Assembly: GCF_026672425.1 (NCBI RefSeq) | Contig: NZ_JAPPRC010000006.1 | Coordinates: 1,054,001 to 1,118,000 of the forward strand | Source: Pannonibacter sp. SL95 | GTDB lineage: Bacteria; Pseudomonadota; Alphaproteobacteria; Rhizobiales; Stappiaceae | DNA length: 64,000 nucleotides | Direction of reading: 5' to 3' | Part shown: positions 1,845 to 52,387 of the stretch, in pieces | Numbering within the stretch: position 1 is the first letter of the stretch | How the letters are laid out: every line of letters begins with the position of its first letter | The notes under the pieces: model-generated | Database searches by the model: none | The model's input: the letters and a program-made list of their open reading frames with translations, nothing else | What the model was told of the DNA's origin: nothing | Program-made: the position numbers and the translations under genes

Positions 1845-1864
1845 GCCCCCATGATGGACTGGAC
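1845..1864. other. attL core of the dusA-integrated island
   Basis: The 20 bases GCCCCCATGATGGACTGGAC are identical to 51383-51402. The identity extends leftwards for nine more bases with one mismatch (TTCGCCGT then T/C). This encodes the conserved APMMDWT segment of DusA, a known integration target for tyrosine-recombinase elements in Proteobacteria. The exact crossover within the identity block cannot be set from sequence alone. Confidence 0.8.
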
Positions 1865-1915
1865 GGACTGGCCGAAATTAGAACTGAAAATTCAAGGTGA
1901 AGCAGGGAATTTCGT

Positions 1916-1934
1916 GTACCAAGTACCAAAATTT
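1916..1934. repeat. island-end GTACCAA repeats (putative integrase arm sites)
   Basis: Two adjacent GTACCAA copies (1916-1922 and 1923-1929) followed by AATTT lie about 50 bp inside attL. They are the reverse complement of the three ATTTGGTAC copies just inside attR (51221, 51241, 51281). Short repeats at both ends in opposite orientation are typical of arm-type binding sites for a tyrosine recombinase. The function is inferred from position. Confidence 0.5.
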
Positions 1935-2164
1935 CGCCCGATCGATTTCCGATAAGCAAAGCCGCTCGCGACTGTTCTGGTAAGGGGCCGACTTCGGGTA
2001 TTCGAGTTCCGGACATTAGATCTGCGAAGCGGACATTTACATCGTTCAGGTCACCGAAAGATTCCGGCTCATACCTGCCTTCCATGTCACCGAAGATGCT
2101 GCAACGCAGTTTCCTCGCGCCGGCCATGCCCGAAGGACTGCGCCCCATTTGATTGTAGCCATCG

Positions 2165-4810
2165 TCAAACGGCACGTGCTTTCCAAATTTGATAGATCGT
2201 CTTGCGCCTTTCAAACGCTTCCGGGCCGCCTTCCATGATAGAGATAACGCTTGACTGACACGCTTTGTCGTCAATATTGCCGACCGATATAGCGATTTCA
2301 TTATCGCTGGCGCTGCACGTGGTGATAGTTTCAGCATCGCCCAGCACCGGGAAATTCGCATTGTGTGTTGCGAAGATGAATTGCTGATTTGGCTTTAGCT
2401 TGCGAACCAGTTTCACCACTTCCTCATAGACGGTTTGGCTGTCGAGATCATCTTCCGGCTGATCGATGAGCAAGAGATCATTCCCCTCTTGGCTCAGCAG
2501 GAAGAGCATCATTGCAGAGGCACGCTGACCGAGAGAGTGTGATGACAGCGTCTTGCCATGATATGTCACCGTGTAGCTGTTTGGTACTTGGTAACCCGTA
2601 AGTGCGTCCAAGTTCGCCATGAAGAGCTTCTTGAACTCTTCGGACTTTCCCTTAGCGTTAGTGGAAGCTTTGTCGAGGTCTTTGAAAATCTCGCCAAAAT
2701 CGATATAAGCAGCGGCGAGGGCCTCATAATATTCCTTGCGGAGATTTTTGCCGCGAAGCAGCCCATCAATGTGGTTCTTGAAGGCGCTGCGATCACCTTT
2801 GAACTCCGCGTCTACCCGCAACGATCCTTGCGATTCATTGATGATCCTCAACGCCGCCGCGATGAGCTTAAACTCATCATGCCATGCGCTATCCAGCGAA
2901 GCCATGGCAGTCAGAACTGCCTCAAGCTTGGATTTCTCCTTGCTGGTGCGCTTGGCCAGTTCGTCGATCTGCGCCTCAAGTTCCTGCTTGCGCTGCACGA
3001 GCTTGATATAGGCATCCGGCTGGATCGAGGTAACGCCTTGTTCTTCGAGCGCCTTAACCAAATTCCGTTCGGTCTCTGCAAATTCTTCCGATAGGCCATC
3101 GCGAATGCCTTCAAGTTCTTGGCGCAGCGCATGTAGATCGCCAGACTTGGATTTGATCATGGCAGCAAGGGTCTTGGCGGTTGCAACGGTTCCTTTCAGT
3201 TCCTGCAATTTGACCGCATAGCGTGTGAAGAAATCAGCGTTGTGATCGGATGCATGGGCTTCGATCAGCTTGAAGTCTTCTTCGGCTTGGGTCGCTGCAT
3301 CATCAATTGCCTTCTGCCAGCCTTGCGCCGTCTCGTCGATGCCTTCGCAGTAGGTCAGGTCCTCGCTATAGGCTAATTGCTTTTCAAGCTTGTCCTTGAC
3401 GCCGTGCTTGTCGAAATGCTCGAGATTAAACTCGACATCCTTGAGTTCATCCTCCAGCACCTGCTTGTCCTCGGCATCATTGCGGACCGAATTGAAACTA
3501 TCTATCGCTGTTTTCAGATCGCCCGAGCGTTCTTCGATTTTTTGTCGGACAGCTTTCAGGCTATCCCCCATGAGCTTTTCGACAAGGTCGTGCCCAAAGC
3601 CTTTTCCGGCGGCAGAGAGGTCCTTCTGGCCAAAATACAGCGGCTTAGTAATGATGGTTTCCTTAATGGAAACGCCCGGACGCAGCTTGCCATCGACATA
3701 GACATTCGGCGATTGTCCCCAGATACGACTTACTTCGAACTGCCCACCATGCCTGTCAGTCGCCTCGACAATCACCTTGCCGCCACTTTTGAGGACATGA
3801 GGCAAGAGCTTGTCCTTGTACTCCTTGTCCTGTGCCTTTTCGCCAAAGGGGATATCGAGCGCATAGCGCACGCTCTCCAGAATGGAGGATTTGCCGCTGC
3901 CCTGGATGCCGATCAGGCAATTCAAGTGCGGAGAGAAGGTGACCCGCTTACCATCCAGCAATCCGCCTTCGAACCGAATGGCATTGATATGAGAATGACC
4001 AACCGGTGGGACCTCTGCCGAGACGCGGAATTTATGATCGGTCAGTGCGAATTTGACGGCATCAAAACCAAGATCGCCAAGTTTGAGATAGACCTTTTTG
4101 CCCTTGCCAATGTCGCCGATTGCTTTTGCGTCAGAACCCTCGACCTCGGCCGGATAGTGCTCGCGCCACCAGCCTTTGACCTTGGTGCGACATACGGCAT
4201 CGGGTTTGTCGTGCGTCCGTACCTTCTGAAAACCAAGGGTGTATTTCTGGATCAAGGGCTCTGCAGCAAGCTCTCCCATCCGCCCCCCGCCGATTTCTTT
4301 CCACAATCCGCTATTGGCCTCGACATGGGCGAAAATGATAAAGAAATCCCGATTGTAGCCTTCCAGCTTTTTTAGCGTATCAACAAGATCAGCGTTGCTC
4401 CGGCCGTTTTCCTGCTCGTATTGCTCAGGGACCCTGCCGGCGAAGGCTACTCCCAGGAACTGGTTGATGTAATCCTGACCATCAGCCAGCCAGGAATCGG
4501 AGAACACGACCAGTGTATGTACGCCGTTCGCGCCGTCCTTGACCGACAGCTCCAATCCGGGCAGTACACCGATCCCCGACTTACGCGCTCGCTTGCGCAG
4601 GGCTTTGAATTCGTTGAGGTCAAACTTGTTGTGGTTGGTAATGACGGCGAGCCGTGTCCCGGCGGCTTCGAGCGCATCAATATAACTGGCGACGAAGCGA
4701 TCCTCCTCGCCATCATAGTGAAATTCCTTATCGGCACGCGTGTGCAGGTGAAAGTCTGCTCTTACCCACTGCGCCCCATACTCGAAGAGTTCCTGAAGTG
4801 CCTCGCTCAA
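2165..4810 (-). CDS. PHP-domain / SMC-like AAA ATPase (TrlF-like), putative defence protein
   Basis: An 881-residue protein. The N-terminus (about residues 16-110) has a PHP phosphoesterase signature: RADFHLHTR gives the H-x-H metal motif, and AVITNHNKFDL and PGLELSV follow. An SMC/RecN-type ATPase starts at about residue 275: the P-loop is LIGIQGSGKSSILESV, a long helical region rich in E and K spans about 410-680, and the C-terminal half holds SLGQRASAMMLFLLSQ (signature) and LLLIDQPEDDLDSQT (Walker B). PHP plus this ATPase is the layout of proteins annotated as TrlF-family AAA-like ATPases, which occur in defence-rich mobile regions; a role in phage defence is inference. The start is TTG, since an in-frame stop lies two codons upstream. 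It is the first gene inside the island. Confidence 0.75.
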   Translation of the reverse strand: MSEALQELFEYGAQWVRADFHLHTRADKEFHYDGEEDRFVASYIDALEAAGTRLAVITNHNKFDLNEFKALRKRARKSGIGVLPGLELSVKDGANGVHTLVVFSDSWLADGQDYINQFLGVAFAGRVPEQYEQENGRSNADLVDTLKKLEGYNRDFFIIFAHVEANSGLWKEIGGGRMGELAAEPLIQKYTLGFQKVRTHDKPDAVCRTKVKGWWREHYPAEVEGSDAKAIGDIGKGKKVYLKLGDLGFDAVKFALTDHKFRVSAEVPPVGHSHINAIRFEGGLLDGKRVTFSPHLNCLIGIQGSGKSSILESVRYALDIPFGEKAQDKEYKDKLLPHVLKSGGKVIVEATDRHGGQFEVSRIWGQSPNVYVDGKLRPGVSIKETIITKPLYFGQKDLSAAGKGFGHDLVEKLMGDSLKAVRQKIEERSGDLKTAIDSFNSVRNDAEDKQVLEDELKDVEFNLEHFDKHGVKDKLEKQLAYSEDLTYCEGIDETAQGWQKAIDDAATQAEEDFKLIEAHASDHNADFFTRYAVKLQELKGTVATAKTLAAMIKSKSGDLHALRQELEGIRDGLSEEFAETERNLVKALEEQGVTSIQPDAYIKLVQRKQELEAQIDELAKRTSKEKSKLEAVLTAMASLDSAWHDEFKLIAAALRIINESQGSLRVDAEFKGDRSAFKNHIDGLLRGKNLRKEYYEALAAAYIDFGEIFKDLDKASTNAKGKSEEFKKLFMANLDALTGYQVPNSYTVTYHGKTLSSHSLGQRASAMMLFLLSQEGNDLLLIDQPEDDLDSQTVYEEVVKLVRKLKPNQQFIFATHNANFPVLGDAETITTCSASDNEIAISVGNIDDKACQSSVISIMEGGPEAFERRKTIYQIWKARAV

Positions 4811-5075: not shown

Positions 5076-5177
5076 GTTACAAAACCTGGGTGTTGAATAG
5101 AATAGACCCAGGAATTGTCACGCGAGATTGTGTTACAAAACCTGGGTGAGAATCAAGTTAGACCCAGGATATGTAAC
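5076..5177 (+). promoter_or_regulatory. tandem operator-like repeats upstream of abiEi
   Basis: A unit of about 56 bp occurs twice. GTTACAAAACCTGGGTG is at 5076-5092 and 5132-5148, and TAGACCCAGGA is at 5103-5113 and 5159-5169. Within each unit CCTGGGT and ACCCAGG form an inverted repeat spaced by about 13 bases. AbiEi-type antitoxins are known to repress their own promoters by binding inverted repeats, so these are good candidates for the operator. The second unit ends about a dozen bases before the abiEi ATG. Confidence 0.65.
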
Positions 5178-5180
5178 GGC

Positions 5181-5793
5181 ATGACCCAGGCAGGACGAAC
5201 CCAGCGTGATCAGCTGTCGGCTCTTCTCCGATCAAAGCCGATCGTGCGCGCGTACGAGCTCCGCAAGGTGGGAATCGCCGGTCAAACGATCAAGCGCGCC
5301 GTTGATGACGGCGAGCTTGTTCGCATCTCCCGGGGTCTGTACCAGCGCGCCGACACCGATGTGGACACGGAACAGGCACTGGCCGAAGCAGCAAAACTGG
5401 TGCCGAAAGGGGTCATCGCGATGGTCTCGGCACTCGCCTTCCATGGGCTGACCGATCAGATGCCTCGGAAGATCTGGGTCGCCATCAGCACGAAGGACTG
5501 GGCGCCGGCGCCGGCTTATCCCCCGATCCGAATCGTCGAATTTCGCGACAAGTACATGCAGCAGGGAATCGAGCATCACCGGATATCAGGCGTCGACGTG
5601 CCCGTATTTTCGGTAACAAAGACGCTTGCTGACATCTTTCGCAACAGCAAGCTGGTCGACCGCTCGGTTGCCGTGGAGGGCCTTCGCGCAGCACTTGAAC
5701 AGCGCAAGGCCACGCCTGGTGCGATCGCGGACGCGGCATTGGGGGCAGGGGCCTGGCGGATCATGCGACCCTATCTCGAGGCTTTGACGTCGA

Positions 5794-5801
<8 letters not shown>
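5181..5801 (+). CDS. abiEi: AbiEi-family antitoxin / transcriptional regulator
   Basis: A 206-residue protein. The N-terminal winged helix-turn-helix (about residues 10-55: LLRSKPIVRAYELRKVGI, then LVRISRGLYQR) is the AbiEi_4 type, and the C-terminal domain includes VFSVTKTLADIFR. In type IV toxin-antitoxin systems AbiEi counters the nucleotidyltransferase AbiEii and represses the operon. The ATG at 5181 was chosen because the domain begins directly after it and the operator-like repeats end just upstream. A longer frame from TTG at 5115 would run through those repeats. No strong Shine-Dalgarno is visible. The stop overlaps the abiEii start by 8 nt, the usual coupling of this pair. Confidence 0.85.
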
Positions 5802-7867
<2,066 letters not shown>

Positions 7868-7929
7868 TTCGGTCTCCTCTTGCGACGAGACCCAAGTGGA
7901 AACATTCGGCAGAAAGGGACCGCATCGGC

Positions 7930-7975
7930 CCGGGGTTTGCGGCGCGCACAAAAGGCCTTTAGCGGCCCGAAAGGA
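7930..7975 (-). terminator. possible riboswitch expression-platform hairpin
   Basis: On the minus strand CCTTT...AAAGG with a short loop is followed by CCTTTTG, downstream of the TPP aptamer and upstream of the thiC ATG. Its position suits a TPP-controlled terminator. The fold was judged by eye only. Confidence 0.35.
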
Positions 7976-8114: not shown

Positions 8115-8883
8115 GTGCTTACATTGTTTGTGCGTTTTTCCGTGGCGTCAATCGCAAAAGTTGCAAAAAATCCCGTCACTCCAATTCCGCTTTTGTCCGC
8201 CGCCGGGTGGCGGCGGGCCCAAATGTGATCCGGCCCGGGGCTTTCGCAATGTGTAGAGTTGAAAAACACAGCCCGATCCGGTTTCGTGGACCGACTGTTC
8301 TCACCGCATCGATTTTGCGCTCCGGACCCGTATGAAATTGTCGATATGGTGCCCTGCCAGTTCCGCACCGTCTGGTGCGGCGTAGTCCAGTGAGGTCAAC
8401 GACAGCTTTCAGCTTGTTTCCCTCTATTCGGTGGCTGACCTCCCGTTCCTGATGGCCTCTCGAAGCGGCTGATAGGCGGCTGCGGTAGCCGGTCTTTTCG
8501 CCTGCGAGGTTCGCTCCTGAAAGTAACCCTGGGTTTCAAATAAGGCCAAGCCAGCATTTGGAATTGAAAGAAAACAGGAAATAATTCTGAACATTTTTGA
8601 TGGGCAATCGTGCGGTGTATGTATATTTTTCTTTAATCATTGCTTACTAAGTGTTTTAAAACATTTTTATTATTTTCTGATGCGTAAAGCAATGATGTTC
8701 TTGTGTAATTATTCGATATATGGCAAAAAATTTTGAAGTAAGTCTCTTAATAATATTATTAATCCATTTTAAATTGCATAATTTTGTCACAATCAAAAGA
8801 AAAATCAAATACCGGTTGACAGAAATATCAGTGTAGCTATTAGTAGCATTATACAACTTTAGATGGATCTGGGAAGCGTTTCG
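8115..8883. promoter_or_regulatory. AT-rich intergenic region with candidate promoter of the NRPS operon
   Basis: No gene is supported here. From about 8540 the DNA is strikingly AT-rich compared with both sides. A TTGACA hexamer at 8816-8821 is followed after 16 bases by TATTAG (8838-8843), a plausible sigma-70 promoter placed about 45 nt before the mbtH start. The AT-rich stretch could also bind nucleoid silencers, as is common at transferred biosynthetic loci. Confidence 0.45.
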
Positions 8884-9081
8884 ATGGACCAGGAAATTGT
8901 CTACAAGGTCGTGCTGAATCACGAAGAGCAATACTCAATCTGGCCTGCGGACAGGGAGATTCCCGAAGGCTGGAGAGCCGAAGGTTTCGAAGGGAAAAAA
9001 GCTGCCTGCCTGGATCATATTGACGAAGTCTGGACTGACATGAGGCCGCTGAGTTTGCGCAAGTCCATGGCGGAAACATGA
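8884..9081 (+). CDS. MbtH-like NRPS chaperone
   Basis: A 65-residue protein with the MbtH family signature: a [15 protein letters not shown] strand, [25 protein letters not shown]. MbtH-like proteins bind adenylation domains and are often needed for their solubility and activity. The start at 8884 was preferred over an in-frame ATG at 8863 because GGGAAG lies seven bases upstream of it, while the upstream ATG has no ribosome site. It opens the plus-strand NRPS gene series and is followed 45 bp later by the FAAL gene, so it probably serves the adenylation domains of this locus. Confidence 0.93.
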
Positions 9082-9126: not shown

Positions 9127-11118
9127 ATGGTAGAGCATGTGTTGACGCGTATCCTCAGGATTGCCGCTCATGAACCTGATCGCGTGGCGATCGTTTCTCT
9201 CGACAGTTCGGGTAACGAAACGTCCGAACCGATGACGTATTGTGATCTGGACCGGGGATGCCGGCATGTCGCGTCCGCGCTCATTGCATCCGGGTGTGTC
9301 GGTCGAACGGTCCTTTCAAGTGTTGAAGATGCTAAGAGGTTCGCATGCCTTTTTCTGGGGGCGCTGCGTGCAGGCGCCATACCCGTGCCGCTTTATGCCG
9401 CCGGGTCTCCGCGGAAAAAAGCGCTTCAAAATGCTGTCGTGAAAGATGCAGGGCCGGTTCTTCTGGTACATGGCGGCCAGCCACAGGCTGTTTCGGTGGA
9501 CCAGGTTTGTGTTGACGAGCTTCTGTCGCATGAACTCTGCGATCTGCCGGCTGTTCCCCAGACTGTTTGCGAGGATGGCCTTGCCTATCTTCAATACTCT
9601 TCCGGTTCGACTGGAACCCCGAAGGGAATCATGGTTACCGCGCGGAACATTGCAACCAACGTGCTTGCAATCGCACATGCCGCGGGAATTTCCCAGCGAT
9701 CCGTAATGGTGAACTGGATGCCTCTTTTCCACGATTTCGGGCTGGTGTTTGGACTTTTGACCCCGCTGGCGGAGGGCGCGCGCGTGATTTCGATCAGGCC
9801 CCAGGATGTCGGGCGCGATCCGGCCGTCTGGTTGAAGGCCCTGTCGGATCATCGAGGAACAGTGACGGGGGCTCCGGATTTTGTCTTTCGGGCGTGCACC
9901 CACGGCGTTTCGCAAGACTTCCTGCAGAGCCTTGATCTTTCGTGCTTGAAAGTCGCCGTTGCCTCGGCGGAGCCCAACCGTCAGTCCACTTTGGAAGAAT
10001 TTGAACGCCGCTTCTCGGAAGTGGGGCTCGCCCCCGGTGCGTTGCGGCCGAGTTACGGGCTTGCAGAGGCGACGCTTGTCGTCACGAGCGACCCCGCCGG
10101 TCCATACGAAAACGGCAGACGCTGGCGCGTCTCCGGCCAGGATGAAACGGAGCTGCGTAACGGCGTGGTCAGTTGCGGCCGAGCCGCGCTTTGGACGGAG
10201 CTCCGAATTCGCTCCGGCGACCGAGACCAGCCTGACGGAGAGATCGGTGAAGTATATGTTTCCAGTCCTGGTGTAACTGCCGGGTATTTTAACCGTCCGC
10301 ACGACACTGCGGACGCCTTTCTGGAATTGGAAGGCGAGGTTTGGCTGCGGACGGGAGACGAAGGTTTTCTGTCGGAAGGTGAGTTGTTTATTACCGGACG
10401 TGTGAAGGACATGATTGTCTTTGCCGGAGAAAACCACTTCGCGGAAGATATCGAAACAACCGTCGCTTCCCTTGATCCAGTGCTTGCCGCGTGCAGGGTC
10501 GTCGTATTTGGCGTCTCCGTCGGTGTTCAGGAACACGTCGTGGTTGCCTGCGAATTGCCGAGCAGGTTTCGCAGCCGGAGGCCGGAACTCGCAGCGCGGA
10601 TCAGGCAAGCGGTGCTTAACGAGCATGGACTGATGGTCCACGAGGTCGTTTGGCCGCGCGGCAACCAGGTCGCGCGGACAACCAGCGGCAAACCGCGCCG
10701 CCGGGAAACCAAGAAGGATTATCTTGCAGGCAAATTGTCGGGCAAGCCTTCGGTGCAAAACGCATTGACACAAGGCGAGGATATCTGGGTTCCCGTACTG
10801 AGCGATTTGATCCGAGACATCGTAAGGCAAAATGGAGTTCAGGTACCCTCCGGCTTTGATAACAAAGCCACCTTTGCAGAGATCGGCGTCGATTCCTTGA
10901 TCGCGATGCGCATCGCATCTGAAATTGCCGAGATTTTTGGGGTTTCGCTCCAAATCACCAAACTATTGGGCGCCGTGACCTTCGAGGCGGCGGCTGATGA
11001 GGTGGCGCAGCAAATACGGTCGAGCTTAAGTGACGACGATCAAGATCACGTGGCTCGAATAATAGCGAAGGCCGCGCGAGAGACGAAAAATAAAAATCGT
11101 TACGAGAACGCCCTCTGA
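9127..11118 (+). CDS. fatty-acyl-AMP ligase fused to acyl carrier domain (lipopeptide starter)
   Basis: A 663-residue protein. Residues about 1-545 are an AMP-forming ligase: YSSGSTGTPKGIM is the P-loop-like core, WMPLFHDFGLVFGLLTPL is the FAAL/FACL signature, and LRTGDEGF and GRVKDMIVFAGEN are the later motifs. After a linker, residues about 560-645 form a carrier domain with IGVDSLIAMRIA, where the serine (about nt 10894) takes phosphopantetheine. FAALs activate free fatty acids as acyl-adenylates and load them on a carrier, so the product of the locus should be a lipopeptide. The chain length cannot be told. Its last codons overlap a strong terminator hairpin. Confidence 0.9.
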   Translation: MVEHVLTRILRIAAHEPDRVAIVSLDSSGNETSEPMTYCDLDRGCRHVASALIASGCVGRTVLSSVEDAKRFACLFLGALRAGAIPVPLYAAGSPRKKALQNAVVKDAGPVLLVHGGQPQAVSVDQVCVDELLSHELCDLPAVPQTVCEDGLAYLQYSSGSTGTPKGIMVTARNIATNVLAIAHAAGISQRSVMVNWMPLFHDFGLVFGLLTPLAEGARVISIRPQDVGRDPAVWLKALSDHRGTVTGAPDFVFRACTHGVSQDFLQSLDLSCLKVAVASAEPNRQSTLEEFERRFSEVGLAPGALRPSYGLAEATLVVTSDPAGPYENGRRWRVSGQDETELRNGVVSCGRAALWTELRIRSGDRDQPDGEIGEVYVSSPGVTAGYFNRPHDTADAFLELEGEVWLRTGDEGFLSEGELFITGRVKDMIVFAGENHFAEDIETTVASLDPVLAACRVVVFGVSVGVQEHVVVACELPSRFRSRRPELAARIRQAVLNEHGLMVHEVVWPRGNQVARTTSGKPRRRETKKDYLAGKLSGKPSVQNALTQGEDIWVPVLSDLIRDIVRQNGVQVPSGFDNKATFAEIGVDSLIAMRIASEIAEIFGVSLQITKLLGAVTFEAAADEVAQQIRSSLSDDDQDHVARIIAKAARETKNKNRYENAL

Positions 11119-11158: not shown

Positions 11159-12472
11159 ATGTCTGAGTTGAACGGTAATGAATTTTCGACGCTCGAGCGT
11201 TTAAGGAAAGCGCGGCAGGAGTTGAATTTCGAATCGGGATCCTTTGCCGGACGACTCCCTCTGGAAATGAACGAATATGACTTGGCGCCTGGGCAGGAAA
11301 GTCTCTGGTTTGTTCACGAAGCACAGGGGGCAGGGGCGAGTTTCAACATCGGCGCAGCTTTCGCGCTGGATGGACCGCTCGACGTTTCAAGCCTGTTCAG
11401 GTCTGTCGACACGATCACTAGGCGCCATGAGCCGCTCCGCACGTGTTTTCCGGCAACACGCGAAGGGCCCAAGCAGCGTGTGATGCCTTGTGGCCCGCCC
11501 CTGGTGCAAACTGCGGTCAAACCTCAAGAGCTCGACATGCACCTGCAACGTTGCCTGTCCGAGCCATTTGAAATCGGTGACACCGTCCCTGTGCGTTGGC
11601 GGCTATTTCGTCTTGCTGAAAACAAGCATGTTCTTCTGCTTGCCGTGCACCATCTGGTGTCGGATGGCTGGTCGCTTTCGGTCCTGTGCAATGAACTGGC
11701 AGACCACTACAACGCTGGTGGAGACGATGGCCGGCCCGATATGCTGTTCAGATATCTTGACTATGCCCATCTGGCGAAAAGCGCCACCGCAAGCAAGGAG
11801 ATCCGTGATCAGGTCGATGTTCTTGCCGGCCGGCTGAAACATGTGCCTGACAGTGTTTTGGTGCCGGGCCAACAGGTCACGCGGTCCGGTTTCTCAGGAA
11901 AAAGTGTTCGCTGTGAAATCGACGAAGGCTGTGCGCACAAGCTGCGCAGCCTTGCCGTAAGTCAGGGCACGACACTCTACACAGTGCTCCTGGCCGCTGT
12001 CGGGACGTTGCTGATGCGCTGCGGCGGCGCCAGTGAAATGACCGTGGGGTCACCGGTTGCCGACCGCAATTGGCCGGGCGTCCAGAAGCTTATCGGGTGT
12101 TTCTTGAACACGCTCGCTTTGCCTTTGAACCTATCGGGGGTGCAAAGTTTCCGGGACACGGTCGATGCCGCGAAGGAGGCGACGGGGCTGGCGCTCGCCT
12201 GTGCGGGCGCTCCCTATGACGCTGTCCTGGCGAAGGTGCGGCCGGGCAGAGCGGTTACGGACCCAGGTCTCTTCCGGACCATGCTGATTTTCCAAAATAC
12301 ACCGCCGGCTCCCATGAAGCTGGACGGGCTGAGCGTCAACCGGATTGACCTGGAAAGCCCTGGAGCGAAAACGGATCTTAGAGTCGGACTCGAAAAGCCT
12401 TCAACGATAACCGTACCTTGCAAGTCGCCTTGTGATCAGGCGAATGTGGGCGATGATGATCCAAGCCTCTGA
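11159..12472 (+). pseudogene. NRPS gene 1, 5' fragment: starter condensation domain cut by an IS
   Basis: Residues about 40-406 are the first part of a condensation domain: LAPGQESLWFVHEAQG (C1 motif), RRHEPLRTCF (C2), AVHHLVSDGWS (C3, catalytic HHxxxDG, nt 11644-11670), VGSPVADRN and IGCFLNTLAL (C4/C5). Directly after an ACP-bearing FAAL this should be a starter C domain that joins the fatty acid to the first amino acid. After codon 406 (GAT at 12374) and CTT the frame enters the IS at 12381 and ends 30 codons later. Joining 12380 to 13316 restores ...KTDLSFEVSEKVKG... in frame, so this was one gene with the downstream part. Confidence 0.9.
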
Positions 12473-13312: not shown

Positions 13313-13499
13313 TTAGCTTTGAGGTGAGCGAAAAGGTCAAGGGATTGAGCGTCCTGCTCGAATACTCGACGGAGCTTTATACCGACCACACAGCGCAAGA
13401 TCTCGTGAAGGTTTTCGCGCAGTTGCTGGAAGCTGCAGCAGATACACCCGATATCCTCGTGACAGATTTGCCGCGCGCTGACGTCAGCCGCCAGGTGCC

Positions 13500-15500: not shown

Positions 15501-15539
15501 GGACGGCGGATATCCGGAAAAAAGGGAAGTCGGGGAGGC

Positions 15540-18600: not shown

Positions 18601-18639
18601 TCACCCGAGGCAACCAAGGACAATGCCGATGCTGCCGAT

Positions 18640-43965: not shown

Positions 43966-44679
43966 TTACGCGATTTCTCTGAACCGGCAGGCCTCCTCGA
44001 TCATCTTCTCGATTTCACGGGCGGCTGCATTCCTGGCGTCGTTGAAATAGAAATGACCGCCTGGAAACAATTTCGATCCGAGGTAGGTTCTTGTGTGAAT
44101 GGACCAGGCGTCCAGATCTTCTTCCGACACTTCCTTGTCGCCTCTTCCGCCCATGCAGATCACAGGAATGTCGAGCTGTTCCTGATGTTCAAACTCGTAT
44201 GTTTCACAAGCTGCAAAATCGCGTCTTAGAGTGGGGCGGATCAAGTCCATCATCTCTTGCTCTTTGAGTATTTCTTCCGGTGTGCCGGAATAGGTGGCGA
44301 TGGCATCATCGAATTCCTTATTGGACAAGAGATGCAAGGGCGGCCTGGCCAGCGGAAGGTGCGGGGCACGATGTGAAGAGAGTATCAGGAAATCGGGCTT
44401 GCGCTTGCCAAGCGATCGCAAACAGCGTGCTGCCTCGAATGCGACGAGCGCTCCCATGGAGTGGCCAAAAACAGCAAATGGCTGGTCTTCATACATCCAC
44501 CGTTTGGCGAGCCGTTTGGCCAGGAGTTGTATCGTGAAAACCTCGGGCGGATCGACATATGGGCGACCGGTTACCGGGAAGTCGAAGGCCTGGGGGGCAC
44601 AAACGTCCGACATCGAGTCGAGCAGACCGGAATAGGAGCGGGCAGCTCCGCCCGCAAAGGGAAGCAGGAAAAGGTTCAT
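43966..44679 (-). CDS. type II thioesterase (proofreading)
   Basis: A 237-residue alpha/beta hydrolase of the TEII class that frees misprimed or stalled carrier domains. The motifs are FLLPFAGGAA at the start, the nucleophile elbow FGHSMGALVAFE (about residues 71-82), the acid in GRGDKEVSEEDL, and the base in PGGHFYFND. The start ATG lies two bases after the stop of the ABC exporter gene, so the two are coupled. It is convergent with NRPS gene 3; 191 bp lie between them with no clear terminator. Confidence 0.93.
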   Translation of the reverse strand: MNLFLLPFAGGAARSYSGLLDSMSDVCAPQAFDFPVTGRPYVDPPEVFTIQLLAKRLAKRWMYEDQPFAVFGHSMGALVAFEAARCLRSLGKRKPDFLILSSHRAPHLPLARPPLHLLSNKEFDDAIATYSGTPEEILKEQEMMDLIRPTLRRDFAACETYEFEHQEQLDIPVICMGGRGDKEVSEEDLDAWSIHTRTYLGSKLFPGGHFYFNDARNAAAREIEKMIEEACRFREIA

Positions 44680-44681
44680 GG

Positions 44682-46361
44682 CTAATCTTCGTTGATAATT
44701 GCGGGGCGGCGAACAAGTTCACGCTTGTTCAGAACATCGGATTCAACATGACCATACCTGAACGTGATGATGCGATCAGAGACGGAAAAGTAGTCATCAT
44801 CATGTGTAACCACGAGGACCACTTTCCCTTGTGCGGCGAGTTCCGGCAGAATTGAGGTGTAAAACTCAGCCCTAAAAGCGGGATCCTGATCGGATGCCCA
44901 TTCATCGAAGACAACAACCGGTTTGTCATCGAGTAGGACGGTCAGCAATGCGAGACGTTTGCGCTGGCCGGTGGAAAGTTTGGTTGTTGTCGACAGTTTT
45001 TCGCCAGTCAGCTTAACGACATGGCTCAGATTGAGGCGATCCAGGTGCCCCTTGGCGTTCTCCGCGTGCGAGAAGGTCTCATTATTTGCATTGGGCGCGT
45101 AGGAGTCGAACACGTGATAGTCGCTGTAGACACCGGAGAAATGCTGCCTGTACCAATTCATGTTGTCTTTGGTGATGAGCTGCCCGTTCAGCTGAATTTT
45201 GCCGGTGTCAGCCTCATAGAGGCCCGTTATCACCTTCAGCGCGGTTGTCTTGCCCGACCCGTTGCCGCCAACCAGAAACACTATTTCACCTGGTCGGAAC
45301 GACAGATTCAGGGGGCCGACATGAAATGAGCGGCCGCCATCGTGAGCAGACCGATGCTCATATTCGAGCGCCTCGACGGAAAGTGACTCTAACGGACCAT
45401 GTTCCGCGATGTCCGGACTGGCGGGTCTGCGGTGGAGTTCTTTCCCCAGAACGCCGGTTTGCTCGAGCCTCTCAATCGAAATCTGCGCCGAAGCAAGTGT
45501 CGAGAAAAACTGCACGATACCCTCAATCGGGGCGGGCAGATACAGCACGATGACTGCGAATTTGGTCAGCACACCACTGTCCAGAGGTGTGAGCTGAGGG
45601 ACGGCGAAAACGATCACGCCCAGACAGATGAAGTACAAGACCTGACTGAGCGTCAGGCCTGTCGTGGCGAAAATGGCACCGAGGAGTGATCTTTTGAAAT
45701 GATAGTCGAGAGTCGTGGAGAAGGAGTCCTCAAAAAGATGGCGTTGCCGAAATGCGTTGAAACGCAGCTCTTTCACGCCGCGAGTCATACCGCCGGTGAG
45801 CTCGTAAAGATCGTCGCGCGCTCGCCTTGCATCTCTTTGCGCGTGCATGGCGAGAAGGAGAAGCCACCGGTAACCGAAAACACCCAAAACAAGGACGCCG
45901 ACAAGTGCTACCAAGCCGTACAGGGAGACGAAGCCCAAGTATATCAGGCATCCGGCGAGCACGATCACGTGGCCCAGGAAATTCGGGAGTCCGGAGAGGC
46001 CGGCCCCGATACGAACAACGTCATCGAAGACAAGTGCCATGATCCGCGGAACGCCGAGCTCCTCGATCTGCTTCAGTGGGAGCCCGAGGATGTTCTGAAC
46101 AAGATTGTACCGGATCTGGACGATCGCGCGCATGGCAAAATAATCAAGAAGATTGCGCGAAATCAGGCGGCTACCAATCAAAAGGGACACGGCACCGACG
46201 AAATAGAGGCCCATTGGAGTTCCGTCAGGAACTTCTCCGGACAGTTGTTGACCAACGAGCTTTAGCGCAAATACGGTTGCTCCGGCCGATAGAACAACCA
46301 AAAGTGTCAGAGGCAAAATAGCTGGACCACAAACCCGAAACAAAAGCCAGACTACGCGCAT
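44682..46361 (-). CDS. cyclic-peptide-type ABC exporter (fused permease-ATPase)
   Basis: A 559-residue half-transporter. Six hydrophobic segments occupy about residues 1-300 (for example ILPLTLLVVLSAGATVFAL and GLVALVGVLVLGVFGY). The nucleotide-binding domain follows: FLVGGNGSGKTTALKVITGL (Walker A), LSTGQRKRLALLTVLL (signature with T for the usual G), VVFDEWASDQDP (Walker B) and VVTHDDDYF (H-loop). The layout matches the SyrD/PvdE family of cyclic peptide and siderophore exporters. It is likely to export the lipopeptide across the inner membrane. GGGA precedes the ATG. It is followed two bases later by the type II thioesterase. Confidence 0.9.
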   Translation of the reverse strand: MRVVWLLFRVCGPAILPLTLLVVLSAGATVFALKLVGQQLSGEVPDGTPMGLYFVGAVSLLIGSRLISRNLLDYFAMRAIVQIRYNLVQNILGLPLKQIEELGVPRIMALVFDDVVRIGAGLSGLPNFLGHVIVLAGCLIYLGFVSLYGLVALVGVLVLGVFGYRWLLLLAMHAQRDARRARDDLYELTGGMTRGVKELRFNAFRQRHLFEDSFSTTLDYHFKRSLLGAIFATTGLTLSQVLYFICLGVIVFAVPQLTPLDSGVLTKFAVIVLYLPAPIEGIVQFFSTLASAQISIERLEQTGVLGKELHRRPASPDIAEHGPLESLSVEALEYEHRSAHDGGRSFHVGPLNLSFRPGEIVFLVGGNGSGKTTALKVITGLYEADTGKIQLNGQLITKDNMNWYRQHFSGVYSDYHVFDSYAPNANNETFSHAENAKGHLDRLNLSHVVKLTGEKLSTTTKLSTGQRKRLALLTVLLDDKPVVVFDEWASDQDPAFRAEFYTSILPELAAQGKVVLVVTHDDDYFSVSDRIITFRYGHVESDVLNKRELVRRPAIINED

Positions 46362-46523: not shown

Positions 46524-47822
46524 CTAGACGGCAATTTCAACATCTTCGTTCTCTATGATCTCTGCTTCATTGAAAATGATGGGTCTCGTTACAAATTTAT
46601 TGATGATGTCGTCTGGTTTATCAGGCTCTCGAGTCAGAGTGACCGTACCGTTATCTATTAGAAGCTCTGCGGGGAAACCGTGGCTGACGAAATAGACGGG
46701 TGAATGTGTCGGCCCGTAGGCTCCAGATTGATCGATCCGAACAAGGTCACTAGCGTGCAGGGCGGGCAACTGAACGTCAACGGCCAGTGTGTCGAGGGGC
46801 GTGCATAGTGGGCCGGTGACAGTGACTTTTGAAAGGGCACTTTGTTGCCCAACCTTACGTACCGGCCAGTTCTCGCGATGGGGGTTGCCATAACCGGCTG
46901 CCGAACTGTGGACATTTGCGCCGCCGTCGCAAACAGCGAAGATCTTGCCATGGCATTCCTTGACATAGCGCGCGCCGGTAACAAAGACGCCGGCCGGGCC
47001 GACGAGGTAGCGACCCAGCTCGAAAAAGACTTTAAGATTCGGATGGTTGTAAAATTCTCTTGACAGCTGCCTATTCAGCCCGTCCAGCAGACTTGCTATA
47101 TCCAGGTCGGCCTGGCCAGGATGAACAGGGATCCCGAAGCCGCCACCAACATCCAGAATGTCGATTGTAACGCCGAAACGATTACGAATTACGTCTGAAA
47201 GCAGCAATATCTTGGAATATGCACGCAGTAGATGGGTGTAATCGAGGACGCGGTTTCCCAGGTAGACGTGCAATCCTCGAAATCGAAGCGCGTGCAGGTC
47301 CTTGAGTGCCAGGAATGCCCTGTCGAGCTGCGCTTCTTCGATTCCGAATTGGGTTGGCAACCCGGACATTTTGTATCCGTCGCCTTCCAGCTTGAATGCC
47401 GGATTGATCCTCAACGCAATATCCTGAATGCGCCCCACGGATGAGGCTATTTCGTTGATCTTTCTTATTTCTTCAATCGATTCCACAATCACGAGCTGGA
47501 TTTCATTTAAGATGATTTCCCGGATTTCCTGTCCCGATTTGCTCGGTCCAACGAAAATTATGTCCTTGCTGCTTTGTCCCGCTTTTTTTGCGAGCCTCAA
47601 CTCGGTGAGCGAAGTAACCGCGATGCCCGCTCTAAGTTTTCTAAATTCTTTTAGAACCTCAATATTAGGATTCGCTTTCGCAGAATAAAAAATGTATGCT
47701 CTATGATTAAGCTTTTCACGCAACTCTATATATCTCTGGCGGATAATTTGTGCATCGTAGCAATAAAAGGGCGTGTCTTGGATCTTCGCAATCTTGAAGA
47801 TCAAGTCATCTGGGATTGCCAT
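46524..47822 (-). CDS. PLP-dependent decarboxylase, alanine-racemase-fold (LysA/ODC-like)
   Basis: A 432-residue fold-type III PLP enzyme. FYSAKANPN carries the PLP lysine (about residue 48). LDVGGGFGIP gives the phosphate-binding glycine loop. FELGRYLVG replaces the usual E-P-G-R, and GPLCTPLDTL and QSGAYG supply the catalytic Cys/Asp and Tyr segments of meso-DAP/ornithine decarboxylases. It sits inside the lipopeptide locus, in line with exporter and PPTase, so a role in making an unusual amine or amino-acid building block is more likely than lysine biosynthesis; the substrate is unknown. GGAG is nine bases before the ATG. Base composition is more AT-rich than the NRPS genes. Confidence 0.85.
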   Translation of the reverse strand: MAIPDDLIFKIAKIQDTPFYCYDAQIIRQRYIELREKLNHRAYIFYSAKANPNIEVLKEFRKLRAGIAVTSLTELRLAKKAGQSSKDIIFVGPSKSGQEIREIILNEIQLVIVESIEEIRKINEIASSVGRIQDIALRINPAFKLEGDGYKMSGLPTQFGIEEAQLDRAFLALKDLHALRFRGLHVYLGNRVLDYTHLLRAYSKILLLSDVIRNRFGVTIDILDVGGGFGIPVHPGQADLDIASLLDGLNRQLSREFYNHPNLKVFFELGRYLVGPAGVFVTGARYVKECHGKIFAVCDGGANVHSSAAGYGNPHRENWPVRKVGQQSALSKVTVTGPLCTPLDTLAVDVQLPALHASDLVRIDQSGAYGPTHSPVYFVSHGFPAELLIDNGTVTLTREPDKPDDIINKFVTRPIIFNEAEIIENEDVEIAV

Positions 47823-47909: not shown

Positions 47910-48647
47910 TCAGGAGGCTCTGCAGGTTTCAAGAGGTTGCAGGGACTGTTCTTGACAACGCCAAGGTAAGTTTGAGGGGCTTACAAACTCCAGTATAGCT
48001 CCAGGGCGGTGCGCAACAGACACGATGTGAGAGCCCTCTAAGATGAACGTTTTAAGGTCAAAAAAGCGGTCTTCTTTCTGTCCGCTATGTGAATGGATCT
48101 GGACTTTGTGGCCCTCATTCTTCAGCACGTCATATTTTGTCAGATCGTCGGATAGCCCAGTTCCCGCCGCCTTCAAGAGTGCTTCCTTACGGGTCCAGAG
48201 TTGAAGGAATGCATTGCCACGGTCAGCGTCTGGTATTCTTTTGAAAGACTTTTGCTCGAGTTCTGAGAGGGTCAACGCATGAAGATCGTCGAAAGACGTT
48301 GCCGACAAACGTTCTGCGTCTATGCCGACGGTGTGATCGAGCGAAACGGCAATCGAAACTAAGTCTTCGGTGTTGCTAAGGTTGAAATGGATGGGCTCCC
48401 TTCCGTCAATATCTATGAAATGTGGTTTGCCTCGTGGTCCGTAACAAAAAGTTACTTTTGATGGATCAATATCTAATAAATAACCAATAATGTATCTGAG
48501 CAATGATCGTCCAAATTCAAAATACAATTTCAATTTTGTGGATTTGTAATTTTCTTTTCTTATATTTTCATCGCTAGATAAACAAACATGTTTTGGTAGC
48601 GACAAATTATTGCCGCCCTTTGTGGGAAAATTGTACACAATCACCAC
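47910..48647 (-). CDS. Sfp-type 4'-phosphopantetheinyl transferase
   Basis: The enzyme moves phosphopantetheine from CoA to carrier-domain serines and so activates the NRPS and the FAAL carrier. Motifs: PRGKPHF (P1/P2), HFNLSNTEDLVSIAVS, VGIDAERL (Mg-binding D-x-E), and WTRKEALLKAAGTGLS (the W-x-x-K-E-A signature). The start is uncertain. The longest frame begins with GTG at 48647, but an in-frame TTG at 48605 has AAAGGGCGG about seven bases upstream and gives 231 residues. It is AT-rich in its first third. It is transcribed with the decarboxylase (87-bp gap) and divergent from the ATP-grasp gene. Confidence 0.9.
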   Translation of the reverse strand: MVIVYNFPTKGGNNLSLPKHVCLSSDENIRKENYKSTKLKLYFEFGRSLLRYIIGYLLDIDPSKVTFCYGPRGKPHFIDIDGREPIHFNLSNTEDLVSIAVSLDHTVGIDAERLSATSFDDLHALTLSELEQKSFKRIPDADRGNAFLQLWTRKEALLKAAGTGLSDDLTKYDVLKNEGHKVQIHSHSGQKEDRFFDLKTFILEGSHIVSVAHRPGAILEFVSPSNLPWRCQEQSLQPLETCRAS

Positions 48648-48736
48648 TATCAGACACTTTCAAATTGCAAAAATTAACATTCTCAATTTTAAGTATAGCA
48701 CAGCTGGCATTTCAGGCAAGTTCAAGGGGAGGTGGT

Positions 48737-49993
48737 ATGAGTTTCCGACGTAAAAGGTTGTTAATTGTCGGGCCGGGAACCGAGCTCTACAGAGGTTACA
48801 TTCTGAAATCGTTGCGACAAAAATACGACCTGGTCATTCTGTCTGCGGACGAAGCTTCCTGGGCGCAGCCTTTTGCCGAAAAGGTTTGCTACTTCGACAA
48901 TTCAAATCCAAACCAAAGTATTTTCAGCGTTTCAAGGGCTCTCGCTGCGGAATACAGGATCGACGGCGTGCTGACTTGTGAGGAGCGCTTTGTGGAATTT
49001 GCATCGGCCATTGCGTTTGAGTTGCGATTGAACGGCAACAGTTTGGAAACAGCGATGGCGTGCAGGGACAAGCACAAAATGCGTCAGCGGTTTGCTGCCG
49101 CCTCAGTGCCATCAGCAAAAAGCTTGCTGGCACGCACAAAAAAAGACATGCATGCCGCAGCTGAAGAAATTGGGTATCCAGTGGTCGTGAAGCCGCGAGA
49201 CATGAGCGGGAGTCTAGGGGTTCAGCTGATCGACAATCAAGCTGAACTGGAGCTCAGCTATCAAATGATCCTCAAAATTGTCGGTGAGGAGGGCTTGGCC
49301 AGAAAAGGTGTCCTGATTGAAGAATACCTGAGTGGCCCGGAAGTCAGTGTCGAATGCGCTGTGGTAGATGGAAAAGTTGAAATAGTCGGCATGACGCACA
49401 AGGCGCTTGGATTTGCGCCGTTTTTTGAAGAGTTGGGACACGTGGTCTCCCCCAACAATTGCGTTTCGGAAGCCGCGGAGATCTCTGCGGTGGTTTGCTC
49501 GGCGCATGCTGCACTTGGTATCTGCACAGGTGTGACGCATGCAGAACTCCGGTTGACCGAAGCCGGGGCCCGCATGATTGAGATCGCTTTGCGACTTGGA
49601 GGCGATCGCATTCCGCAATTGGTTCATATTTCGACCGGAGTGGATCTTGCGTTGCTTTCAGGCGATATCGCCTCGCGAAGCGAAGCTGACTTCGTTGCGA
49701 AACGGGCCAGATGTGCCGCAATAAGATTTGTTTACCCTGAGTATGATTGCGTCGTGAAGAGCTTGCCGGAGAATAGATCTCTCGTGGATATCAAAGGAGT
49801 AACGGAGTTCTCGTGGTGCGCGGCTGAAAATAAGGTTCACTTGCTACCACCGAGGGGGTTCCTGTCGCGTTTGGCGTTAATCGTAGCGGAAGGAGAAACG
49901 GTGTCAGAATGCGAGGCCACACTTGAAGCAGCCATGAGCGTCCTGAAGATAGACGTTGAAGCTGTCAGGCAGATCGAAGAGCAACTGATTTGA
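48737..49993 (+). CDS. ATP-grasp family ligase
   Basis: A 418-residue protein. The N-terminal pre-ATP-grasp Rossmann part starts RRKRLLIVGPGTELYRGYI. The ATP-grasp core follows: DKHKMRQRF, YPVVVKPRDMSGSLGVQLI (nucleotide-binding loop with VVKP), LIEEYLSGPEVSVECAV and EIALRLGGDRIP. Such carboxylate-amine ligases (L-amino-acid ligase/carbamoyl-phosphate-synthase-like) activate a carboxylate as acyl-phosphate and join it to an amine. The ATG at 48737 has a strong AGGGGAGG site; the frame extends further upstream without a better start. It is divergent from the PPTase. It may tailor the peptide or make a building block with the decarboxylase; this is inference. Confidence 0.85.
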   Translation: MSFRRKRLLIVGPGTELYRGYILKSLRQKYDLVILSADEASWAQPFAEKVCYFDNSNPNQSIFSVSRALAAEYRIDGVLTCEERFVEFASAIAFELRLNGNSLETAMACRDKHKMRQRFAAASVPSAKSLLARTKKDMHAAAEEIGYPVVVKPRDMSGSLGVQLIDNQAELELSYQMILKIVGEEGLARKGVLIEEYLSGPEVSVECAVVDGKVEIVGMTHKALGFAPFFEELGHVVSPNNCVSEAAEISAVVCSAHAALGICTGVTHAELRLTEAGARMIEIALRLGGDRIPQLVHISTGVDLALLSGDIASRSEADFVAKRARCAAIRFVYPEYDCVVKSLPENRSLVDIKGVTEFSWCAAENKVHLLPPRGFLSRLALIVAEGETVSECEATLEAAMSVLKIDVEAVRQIEEQLI

Positions 49994-50137: not shown

Positions 50138-51208
50138 TCATGCACTGCTGATTGCGAGGTCTAAACCGCCCCAGTTGGCATATTTATCCCCGGATTCACG
50201 AATGTGGGTGTAGCGCTTGAGGCTAACCCACGACCGATGACCACTAACTGCCGCGACGTGCGGAATGTTCCAGCCCATCTCAAATAGGCGGGAAATGCCC
50301 TCGTGCCGTAGATCGTGGAAGTGCAAATCATCGATGCCAAGCAGCTTGCAAGCGCGGGTAAAATTCGCCGTTATGGCATCGGCCGAGTAAGGGAATATCT
50401 CGGCTTTATTTTGGGGCATGCTTTCAATGACCTGAATGGCTTCGACTGTGAGGTCGACCCACGTATCATTCCCGATCTTCTCACTAGGGTGCTTCATGTC
50501 GCGCACGAGCACGCGCTTGTGCTGGCTCTGGTAGTCGTCCCAACCGATTTGCGTGACTTCGGTTTGTCTCCGGGTCGAGAAGAGCGCGAACGCGATGACC
50601 TTGTGCATTGGCATGGCTTGGGGGGTCTTCTTGCGGCGTTCAATAAAGTGAGCCAGCAGCTTGTCGAGTTCTTCCAGAGTTGGTCGCCTATCGCGCTTAA
50701 CGGATCGTGAAATGATGCCCATACGGCGTGCGACCGTAATCGCATCTTTCATTTCCCGATCATCTAGCCGGTAGTCCCACATCGGTCGCGCGATGGCGAA
50801 GATCGCAGCGAGATGACTGGCATAGTTGCCCACTGTCTGGGGCTGGCTCGTCAGCGATTGAAGAAATTCAATGATGTCCTTCGACTTGATAGTGGAGCAG
50901 GGCACATCGGCTATCGGGTAGTTCTTGATCGCTCTGAGCACCTGCGCCTTCGTTCGCCCAATCTCCTTAATGGATTCTAGGGTGTATCTGTCGATGGCCT
51001 TTGCTAGTGTCGGATCGGCAGTCTTGACTTCGTCGATGGCCCCTGGCTTCGCGAGCTCACGCTCCCTCTTTTTCATCCAAGCCGCCGCAGCCGGACGTCT
51101 GTCAAATGTCTCCGTCTCGTGATAGGTTGCGCCATCCCGCATAACCCGCACTCGCGCCATGTAGCCGACGCTGCCGTCTTTGCGCTTGCGCGCGGTAATT
51201 GTGCCCAC
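50138..51208 (-). CDS. tyrosine-recombinase integrase of the island
   Basis: A 356-residue phage-type integrase. The N-terminal arm-binding part has KRKDGSVGYMARVRV, a SAM-like core-binding domain spans about 60-165, and the catalytic domain holds the first Arg in STRRQTEVTQIGW, the H-x-x-R box in FHDLRHEGISR, GHRSW and the nucleophile Tyr in SLKRYTHI. It lies 112 bp from the intact dusA and about 175 bp from the attR core and is transcribed away from it, the usual position for dusA-specific integrases. It catalyses insertion and excision at dusA. No excisionase gene was recognised. Confidence 0.95.
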   Translation of the reverse strand: MGTITARKRKDGSVGYMARVRVMRDGATYHETETFDRRPAAAAWMKKRERELAKPGAIDEVKTADPTLAKAIDRYTLESIKEIGRTKAQVLRAIKNYPIADVPCSTIKSKDIIEFLQSLTSQPQTVGNYASHLAAIFAIARPMWDYRLDDREMKDAITVARRMGIISRSVKRDRRPTLEELDKLLAHFIERRKKTPQAMPMHKVIAFALFSTRRQTEVTQIGWDDYQSQHKRVLVRDMKHPSEKIGNDTWVDLTVEAIQVIESMPQNKAEIFPYSADAITANFTRACKLLGIDDLHFHDLRHEGISRLFEMGWNIPHVAAVSGHRSWVSLKRYTHIRESGDKYANWGGLDLAISSA

Positions 51209-51220
51209 TATCGCTTCCTC

Positions 51221-51290
51221 ATTTGGTACGTGGGGATTTTATTTGGTACATTGTGCCAAGTCCAGCTTCGAAATCGGCGGATTTGGTACA
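51221..51290. repeat. three ATTTGGTAC repeats inside attR (putative integrase arm sites)
   Basis: Copies are at 51221-51229, 51241-51249 and 51281-51289, spaced 20 and 40 bp. The reverse complement motif occurs at the other end of the island (1916-1929). They lie between the integrase start and the dusA start, so they may also act in integrase autoregulation or dusA expression. Confidence 0.55.
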
Positions 51291-51319
51291 AAACGAGCGT
51301 GAACAAGACGGAGAGAAAA

Positions 51320-52387
51320 GTGGCGCAAGAGCCTGATAAAAAAGGAAAAATAATATATTTCAAGGCTCCGATATTCGCCGTCGCCCCCATGATGGACTGG
51401 ACTGACCGGCATTGCCGCATGTTCCACCGGCAGTTTTCGGCCCGGGCGCTGCTCTATACCGAGATGGTGACGACCGGGGCGGTGATCCATGGCGACCGGG
51501 AGAAGCTGCTTGGCTTCAGCGCTGGCGAGCATCCGGTGGCCTGTCAGCTGGGCGGATCGGATCCGCGCGAGCTGGCGGACGCGGCGAAGATCGCCGAGGA
51601 CTGGGGCTATGACGAGATCAACCTGAATGTCGGCTGCCCGTCCGACCGGGTGCAGTCCGGCCGGTTTGGCGCCTGCCTGATGCTGGAGCCGGAGCTGGTG
51701 GCCGAGGGCGTGGCGGCGATGAAGGCGGCGGTGCGCGTGCCCGTCACCGTCAAGTGCCGCATCGGCGTCGACGAGCAGGACCCGGAGGAGGCGCTGGACC
51801 GGCTGGCCGACCGGGTGGTGGACGCCGGGGTCGATGCCCTGTGGGTGCATGCGCGAAAGGCCTGGCTGCAGGGGCTGAGCCCGAAGGAAAACCGCGATAT
51901 CCCGCCGCTCGACTATGGCCGGGTGCACCGGCTGAAGGCGCGGCTGCCGGGGCTGTTCATCGGCATCAACGGCGGCATCGCGACGCTGGACGAGGCGATT
52001 GCCGTGATGCAGGGGCTGGACGGGGTGATGCTGGGCCGGGCCGCCTATCACGATCCGGCGCTGATGGGCGCTGTCGACCGGCGGATCTACGGCGAGACGA
52101 CCGCGGATGTGAGCCCTCGGGCGGCCATCGAGGCCTATGTGCCCTATATCGAGGCGGAACTGGCGCGGGGCGTGCGGCTTGCCCATATCACCCGCCACAT
52201 GCTGGGTGCCTTCACCGCTGTGCCCGGCGCAAGGCTCTTCCGGCGCATCCTGACTGTCGAGGGCGTGAAGCCGGGGGCCGGGATCTCCGTGCTGTTTGAG
52301 GCGCTGAATGCCATGGACGAGGCAGCGGCGCGGGCGGCGGAACAGGCAGAAGCCCGGCAGGGCGGCGAGGCTGTGGCTGAGGCCTGA
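51320..52387 (+). CDS. dusA: tRNA-dihydrouridine synthase A with island-supplied start
   Basis: DusA reduces uridine 20/20a in tRNA using FMN and NADPH. Motifs: VAPMMDWTDRHCRMFHRQ at the N-terminus, LLYTEMVTTGAV, CQLGGSDP, INLNVGCPSDRV with the catalytic Cys, VKCRIGVDEQD, WVHARKAWLQGLSPKENRDIPPLDY, and GINGGI. The N-terminal residues before about APIFAVAPMM come from island DNA, replacing the host start now stranded at 1776. The GTG at 51320 was chosen for the GGAGAG site just upstream; a GTG at 51299 is in frame too. About 355 residues, so the enzyme is kept whole after integration. Confidence 0.95.
   Translation: MAQEPDKKGKIIYFKAPIFAVAPMMDWTDRHCRMFHRQFSARALLYTEMVTTGAVIHGDREKLLGFSAGEHPVACQLGGSDPRELADAAKIAEDWGYDEINLNVGCPSDRVQSGRFGACLMLEPELVAEGVAAMKAAVRVPVTVKCRIGVDEQDPEEALDRLADRVVDAGVDALWVHARKAWLQGLSPKENRDIPPLDYGRVHRLKARLPGLFIGINGGIATLDEAIAVMQGLDGVMLGRAAYHDPALMGAVDRRIYGETTADVSPRAAIEAYVPYIEAELARGVRLAHITRHMLGAFTAVPGARLFRRILTVEGVKPGAGISVLFEALNAMDEAAARAAEQAEARQGGEAVAEA
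51383..51402. other. attR core of the dusA-integrated island
   Basis: Identical over 20 bases to attL (1845-1864). It lies within the codons for APMMDWT of the intact dusA. Together the two cores mark an island of about 49.5 kb. Confidence 0.8.

Follow-up and report, generated by a model that had tools for sequence, protein, structure and literature searches.

A dusA-integrated genomic island with a FAAL-started lipopeptide NRPS cluster, broken as assembled, and an integrase whose N-terminal strand matches its putative arm sites

Positions 1845-51402 of the window (the whole 64-kb stretch of DNA that was analysed) are a genomic island integrated in dusA. The island is genuine and ordinary in kind; its NRPS cargo is unusual, and it is broken as assembled. 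We are confident in reading it as a dusA-specific island whose FAAL-started lipopeptide NRPS cargo looks like a decaying passenger, which may still excise but does not at present work as a self-contained biosynthetic unit. The match between the integrase and the short repeats at the island ends is more surprising than the island itself, and easier to test.

A 20-bp core, GCCCCCATGATGGACTGGAC, stands exactly at 1845-1864 and again at 51383-51402. These are its sole two matches in the 64-kb window when up to three mismatches are allowed, and none of 100 shuffles contained two. To the left of the copy at 1845 lies the start of dusA, MNVSFGTETLQQDKLYTAPVFAVAPMMDWTD, which runs into foreign DNA; the body of the gene lies to the right of the second copy and is provided with a substitute start, GTG at 51320. 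The ends are laid out as follows.

1776..1867, + strand: stranded host dusA 5' end, ending in the attL core (94.5% identical to the uninterrupted dusA of G001 over window 1638-1872)
1845..1864, + strand: attL, 20-bp core (exact core repeat)
51320..51382, + strand: new dusA 5' end, supplied by the island (G001 comparison and sequence)
51383..51402, + strand: attR, 20-bp core (exact core repeat)
51383..52387, + strand: host dusA body (PF01207; 96% identical to G003, 95% to G001)

The same-genus genome G001 offers the empty site: a single uninterrupted dusA joins both flanks, its beginning matching the stranded piece (94.5%, window 1638-1872) and its continuation the rescued gene. In G003, the left flank (window 1-1549, 84%) is found on the same side of an intact dusA, from which genes for a P-type ATPase and a sodium/hydrogen exchanger separate it. 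Insertion is therefore established by comparison with the uninterrupted dusA of relatives. The preliminary description had proposed both the paired core and the stranded host start, and had suggested looking for a close relative with an undivided gene; all three hold up. The island, 49.6 kb long, has a G+C content of 0.601 against 0.678 and 0.649 in its flanks. As in other dusA-specific islands, it replaces the 5' end of dusA and strands the original one, and the att repeats of about 21 bp that such islands leave in dusA are represented here by the exact 20-bp core.

Between the ends, most of the DNA belongs to an NRPS cluster with its accessory genes.

8863..9081, + strand: MbtH-like protein (PF03621)
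9127..11118, + strand: FAAL with C-terminal carrier protein, the acyl starter (49% identical to G803 over the full length)
11159..28020, + strand: NRPS1, C-A-PCP-C-A-PCP-Cy-A-PCP-C-A-PCP-Cy-A (Cy by eye), split by an insertion sequence, with a frame break near 28020
12381..13312, - strand: IS5-family insertion sequence, 932 bp, with a TTA target duplication (one of five identical genomic copies)
28020..28945, + strand: end of NRPS1, rest of the PCP and a SagB-like/nitroreductase oxidase domain, out of frame (SagB 75.6 bits)
28947..33585, + strand: NRPS2, TubC_N docking-C-A-PCP-E (E by eye), with a frame break at 29434/29435 inside C
33575..43774, + strand: NRPS3, three C-A-PCP modules and TE (domain matches)
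43966..44679, - strand: type II thioesterase (domain match and G803 comparison)
44682..46361, - strand: cyclic-peptide ABC exporter (TIGR01194, 358.9 bits; 70% identical to G803)
46524..47822, - strand: PLP decarboxylase, nearest solved relative BtrK (E 1.2e-80)
47910..48647, - strand: 4'-phosphopantetheinyl transferase, PPTase (domain match)
48593..49993, + strand: ATP-grasp amino-acid ligase-like protein (domain and structure match)

Domain matches thus bear out the announced cargo of NRPS genes with FAAL, MbtH, PPTase, exporter and type II thioesterase; with C-A-PCP modules and a terminal TE, the gene set is that of a lipopeptide NRPS cluster. Two Cy segments (by eye) and the terminal SagB-like/nitroreductase domain of NRPS1, whose score of 75.6 bits lies slightly below the model cut-off of 78.4, make a thiazoline or thiazole product likely. 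The BtrK-like decarboxylase, the PPTase and the ATP-grasp ligase (46524-49993) recall the glutamyl-carrier steps of butirosin. Two internal duplications were seen: one of 2058/2059 nt within NRPS1 (19809-21866 and 26223-28281, 99.8% identical), covering a cyclisation/adenylation/carrier stretch, and one of 413 bp further on (39501-39913 and 42633-43045).

A homologous, larger and unsplit cluster is present in G803, a single-contig genome from another family of the class (L148-L153, C1:2318482-2390836); it has five NRPS genes against three in the window. It also includes a methylaspartate mutase-like gene (Met_asp_mut_E). Set against this relative, the locus that had been called complete is interrupted three times as assembled. 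The insertion sequence splits the first condensation domain of NRPS1: window 11159-12436 aligns to residues 1-429 and 13312-28020 to residues 409-5280 of G803 NRPS1, a single frame of 5592 residues, and as both pieces align to that one frame we conclude that one gene was split. By eye, each of the five identical copies of the element is flanked by a TNA triplet. The element is 99% identical to one on the Agrobacterium pusense plasmid NZ_CP076849.1. Further on, the frame of NRPS1 changes near 28020, inside the 99.8% 2-kb repeat; at 28020-28031 the second repeat copy departs from the first at four of 12 nt, including one additional base. NRPS2 matches residues 9-167 of its G803 counterpart in one frame up to 29435 and residues 167-1531 in another from 29434, and this break adjoins GGGGCCC. 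The uninterrupted NRPS frames of a functional cluster are accordingly missing from the assembly, and, judged from its reading frames, the cluster as assembled should not make the full product.

The left side of the island carries the defence genes that had also been listed among the cargo, next to a remnant of thiC.

2165..4810, - strand: TrlF-family AAA-like ATPase, defence-like (NF045780, 544.7 bits against a cut-off of 350; PADLOC Ppl, 117 bits)
5115..5801, + strand: AbiEi antitoxin (PADLOC, E 3.5e-81)
5794..6460 (end approximate), + strand: AbiEii, 3'-truncated at the junction with the thiC fragment (PADLOC model 4-222 of 299)
6274..7951, - strand: thiC fragment, 3' truncated and frame-broken (sole thiC match in the genome)

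As this is the only copy in the genome and none of the four same-genus relatives has a thiC, the fragment probably came with foreign DNA. Rhizobium sp. SL86 likewise has an AbiE pair next to the integrase of its dusA island (L066, 11360-12611). No relaxase, conjugation or type IV secretion gene was recognised among the island proteins scanned (which included two of the small ORFs in 7951-8863). The integrase and the island ends look sound, but with NRPS1 and NRPS2 broken in the assembly the island is probably not at present the working, self-contained unit first proposed.

How much of the decay is real bears on two other readings of the cargo. Errors in sequencing or in the consensus may account for both NRPS frame breaks, and a published dusA island did contain such an error (PMC4482086, section 16). 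If so, and if the insertion sequence were a rare variant of the sequenced clone, the cluster might be functional in the organism; the long frames that stay intact elsewhere (33575-43774, and 13300 to 28020) would fit, as would the precedent just cited. We compared host genes of G000 and G001 over about 400 kb each plus flanks as a control on frames. Six of 46 G001 proteins were frame-split in G000 and six of 64 in the reverse comparison, while a second count gave a net frame shift in 31 of 102 G001 ORFs and 24 of 117 G000 ORFs. Of nine flagged or split ORFs examined by eye, most looked like antisense shadow ORFs, fusions of neighbouring genes or diverged ends; the sole real-looking gene among them, terminase-like by eye (L119, 304-1783), is open in G001 and carries a 2-bp shift in G000. 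A functional cluster nevertheless seems improbable to us. With its target duplication and four identical copies at other places, the insertion sequence is unlikely to be an assembly slip; the neighbouring abiEii and thiC are likewise truncated; and the stretch at 28020-28031 packs four differences into 12 nt of an otherwise identical repeat. The insertion sequence and the truncations are hard to explain as sequence errors. A more serious possibility, to which we give somewhat less than even weight, is that the NRPS, thiC and defence DNA entered a dusA element by separate events, the region then not being one island. The blocks do differ in G+C (0.548 in the left defence part, 0.629 in the NRPS part, 0.511 in the accessory genes), abiEii and thiC meet at a truncated junction, and the 120 kb that surround the G803 cluster contain no match, at E 1e-6, to the PLP decarboxylase, PPTase and ATP-grasp genes. 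Against it, everything lies between one pair of att cores, the window holds no further core, and a second integrase was not seen among the proteins scanned.

Neither dusA nor the integrase has a match within 120 kb around the G803 cluster, and as this related cluster sits outside dusA in an unrelated genus, the cluster type is not tied to dusA. The converse, NRPS cargo on islands with the same integrase, was sought through the condensation domain in 47 genomes, namely those of 43 of the 52 integrase loci described below (two of them in one genome; nine loci fell outside the search) and five family genomes; G423 and G483 gave identical places, leaving 46 distinct genomes. The domain occurred in 21 of the 47. 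On the integrase contig it was never closer than about 291 kb in the 46 distinct genomes, a reach limited by draft contigs; within that reach, the search suggested earlier for the same integrase beside dusA with NRPS cargo gave no further case. Used as a tracer at E 1e-100, the FAAL was confined to the window's own genome among 397 sampled from the order; at E 1e-80 it was found in three of 385 of the class: its own, G803 at 50% and G116 at 35% identity; both sets are samples with at most three candidates scored per genome. A search of 72,556 plasmid records gave 152 matches to it at E 1e-50; none reaches 60% identity, and the best of the 20 listed has 36.4%. A search of the open PMC literature returned no paper joining dusA, nonribosomal peptides and genomic islands, which leaves absence from print unproven.

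The proposal of a tyrosine recombinase at the right end is upheld by a Phage_integrase protein placed between the cargo and dusA.

50138..51208, - strand: dusA-associated tyrosine recombinase with a predicted three-strand N-terminal domain (Phage_integrase match; structure model)

It has no match at E 1e-40 in the four same-genus relatives G001-G004. Scanning species genomes with six peptide patterns yielded 52 loci with relatives that are 46 to 94% identical. In 44 of the 52, dusA lies directly before the integrase on the opposite strand, and of the 51 loci that have upstream sequence (L090 lacks such DNA), 46 show the att core at most 260 bp away when three mismatches are tolerated; L073 has the core, and L081, L087 and L092 do not at up to three mismatches. 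Since position next to the dusA 5' end, core and neighbourhood fit the account of PMC4482086, we assign the protein, from its sequence context, to the dusA-associated integrases.

A structure model of the integrase, built from 24 sequences, has a mean pLDDT of 85.3, with lower confidence at the N-terminus (76 for residues 11-20 and 64 for residues 21-30). The predicted N-terminal domain consists of strands 2-8, 14-24 and 27-35, followed by a helix at 38-52. Its best solved fold match is lambda Int (PDB 1z1g, 1z1b), at a TM-score of 0.48. Residues R213, R214, K239, H298, R301, H324 and Y333 are invariant across 39 full-length integrases; we take these to be the conserved catalytic residues.

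Inside the left and right ends of the island stand short repeats, oppositely oriented on the two arms, with offsets counted from the core of the circular form.

1916..1929, + strand: tandem pair of GTACCAA heptamers at 1916 (+71 from the core) and 1923 (+78), presumed to be P' arm sites
51223..51289, + strand: three TTGGTAC heptamers at 51223 (-160 from the core), 51243 (-140) and 51283 (-100), presumed to be P arm sites

Four further copies of GTACCAA are scattered through the window (2581, 24179, 45150 and 61379). The sibling island of G423 repeats the heptamer pair, at +72 and +79 from its far core. That core (L154, G423 C1:1734928) is the far att core of a dusA island of about 100 kb in Roseibium aggregatum, a member of the host family, as G423 and the genome of L063 yield identical places; the far ends of two other sibling islands were not found within 100 kb (G486) and 60 kb (G485). 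Upstream of the integrase, 47 of the 52 loci together hold 123 G[G/T]ACCAA sites where 2.3 are expected from base shuffles, and 32 of these 47 have at least three. A heptamer in at least three copies was found for 69 of 91 distinct integrases with enough upstream DNA, against 1 to 8% per locus in shuffles; phage-type integrases mostly have different heptamers. Judged from sequence, the GTACCAA heptamers at both ends are probably arm sites of the integrase, three on one side and two on the other. Open PMC literature gave no paper on arm-type sites of dusA integrases, absence from print again being unproven.

The heptamer comes in two versions, GTACCAA and GGACCAA. In a first set of 28 labelled full-length integrases (11 with GTACCAA, 17 with GGACCAA), residue 17 was the sole alignment column that separated the two. 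Nine further loci with at least two heptamer copies all agree with the pattern, L204 among them being identical to L045 outside the N-terminal strand and L072 close to L057; L203 agrees as well, having Arg17 and three G sites. The final set started from 53 loci, less 14 without a clear motif and three identical ones, and was labelled by the six-base motif core. In all 36 distinct integrases that remain, base 2 matches residue 17: G with Arg in 18, T with Leu in 11 and T with Met in seven. The runner-up columns are 14, at 0.917, and 28, at 0.806. The sister pair L065 (Met17, GTACCAA) and L066 (Arg17, GGACCAA) differs in both. When the tree is computed with the N-terminal strand left out, motif and residue each change eight times. 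Eight changes compare with a shuffled mean of 12.2 (lowest 6 of 1000), meaning that the labels clump on the tree; as several nodes also look poorly resolved, the independent switches may number fewer than eight.

In the model, residue 17 lies on strand 2 of the predicted N-terminal domain. Outside this clade, L307 has Arg at the residue-17 position, AQ in place of AR, and the heptamer GTAGCAA, which argues against a general Arg-G rule. The group of L307 has Gln at residue 19. Among its loci with a repeated heptamer, all five with YLAQ have GTACAAC (L264, a sixth YLAQ locus, lacks such a repeat), and 15 of the 20 with YTAQ have GTAGCAC or GTAGCAA.

We lean towards the view that a short code on N-terminal strand 2 would let dusA-associated integrases recognise their arm sites, and that residue 17 would set base 2 in the clade to which the window's integrase belongs (Arg for G in GGACCAA, Leu or Met for T in GTACCAA), the pair having switched together several times. 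The end repeats might instead be promoter or regulator sites of int, inherited with the int 5' end by segment exchange, in which case the match to residue 17 would reflect linkage and no contact. Three heptamers do lie directly before int, and the next best columns, 14 and 28, are also near the gene start. Still, we think this unlikely: the heptamer pair recurs at the far end, 49 kb off in the window and about 100 kb off in G423, and residue 17 falls on a predicted N-terminal strand of a protein that has lambda Int as its closest solved structure. Should arm-site reading by strand 2 be true, the integrase sequence would allow arm sites to be predicted for many such islands, and their ends could be located from sequence. 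The match would give a direct handle on attP selection by this large family of integrases, and a case of residue-to-base recognition open to test with natural proteins.

We can now propose a course of events for the island. The tyrosine recombinase would recombine a circular attP, the circle being presumed, with attB inside the APMMDWT codons of dusA, probably docking on the heptamer arm sites at both ends, three and two. Integration, attested by the empty site of the relative, gave dusA a new 5' end and left the old one behind. The cargo comprises the FAAL-started lipopeptide NRPS cluster with exporter and helpers, plus the TrlF and AbiE defence genes; decay would then follow through the IS5-family element in the first condensation domain and through the further frame breaks in NRPS1 and NRPS2. 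An NRPS cluster is thereby added to the known cargo of dusA islands. The case also suggests that such a cluster decays after transfer, and a cluster on an island should therefore not be read as production.

Islands specific to dusA have been described since 2015 (PMC4482086). Going by the relevant passages of that account, they share with ours the target codons, a core of about 21 bp, a dusA 5' end supplied by the island and an integrase beside dusA; at 49.6 kb, the present island compares with a published average of 42.6 kb. The cargo differs: section 16 of the same source lists prophage, type IV secretion, cytochrome biogenesis, rut, metal resistance, restriction and metabolic enzymes, where we find NRPS genes. 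NRPS cargo on an integrating element has a parallel in equibactin on ICESe2 (PMC3672683), an ICE in another host, whereas no conjugation gene was recognised here among the proteins scanned. On the protein side, the comparison with lambda Int spans 377 alignment columns on a 349-residue chain, at 18% identity and a TM-score of 0.48, with the domains placed differently (rmsd 20). A precedent for linking residue to arm base comes from cluster K mycobacteriophages: for cluster K1, a passage of PMC3203893 proposes that a T/G difference in the arm sites follows integrase residues 17 and 19. That proposal concerned four phages; the present comparison covers another family, with 36 distinct integrases among which the tree shows repeated switches.
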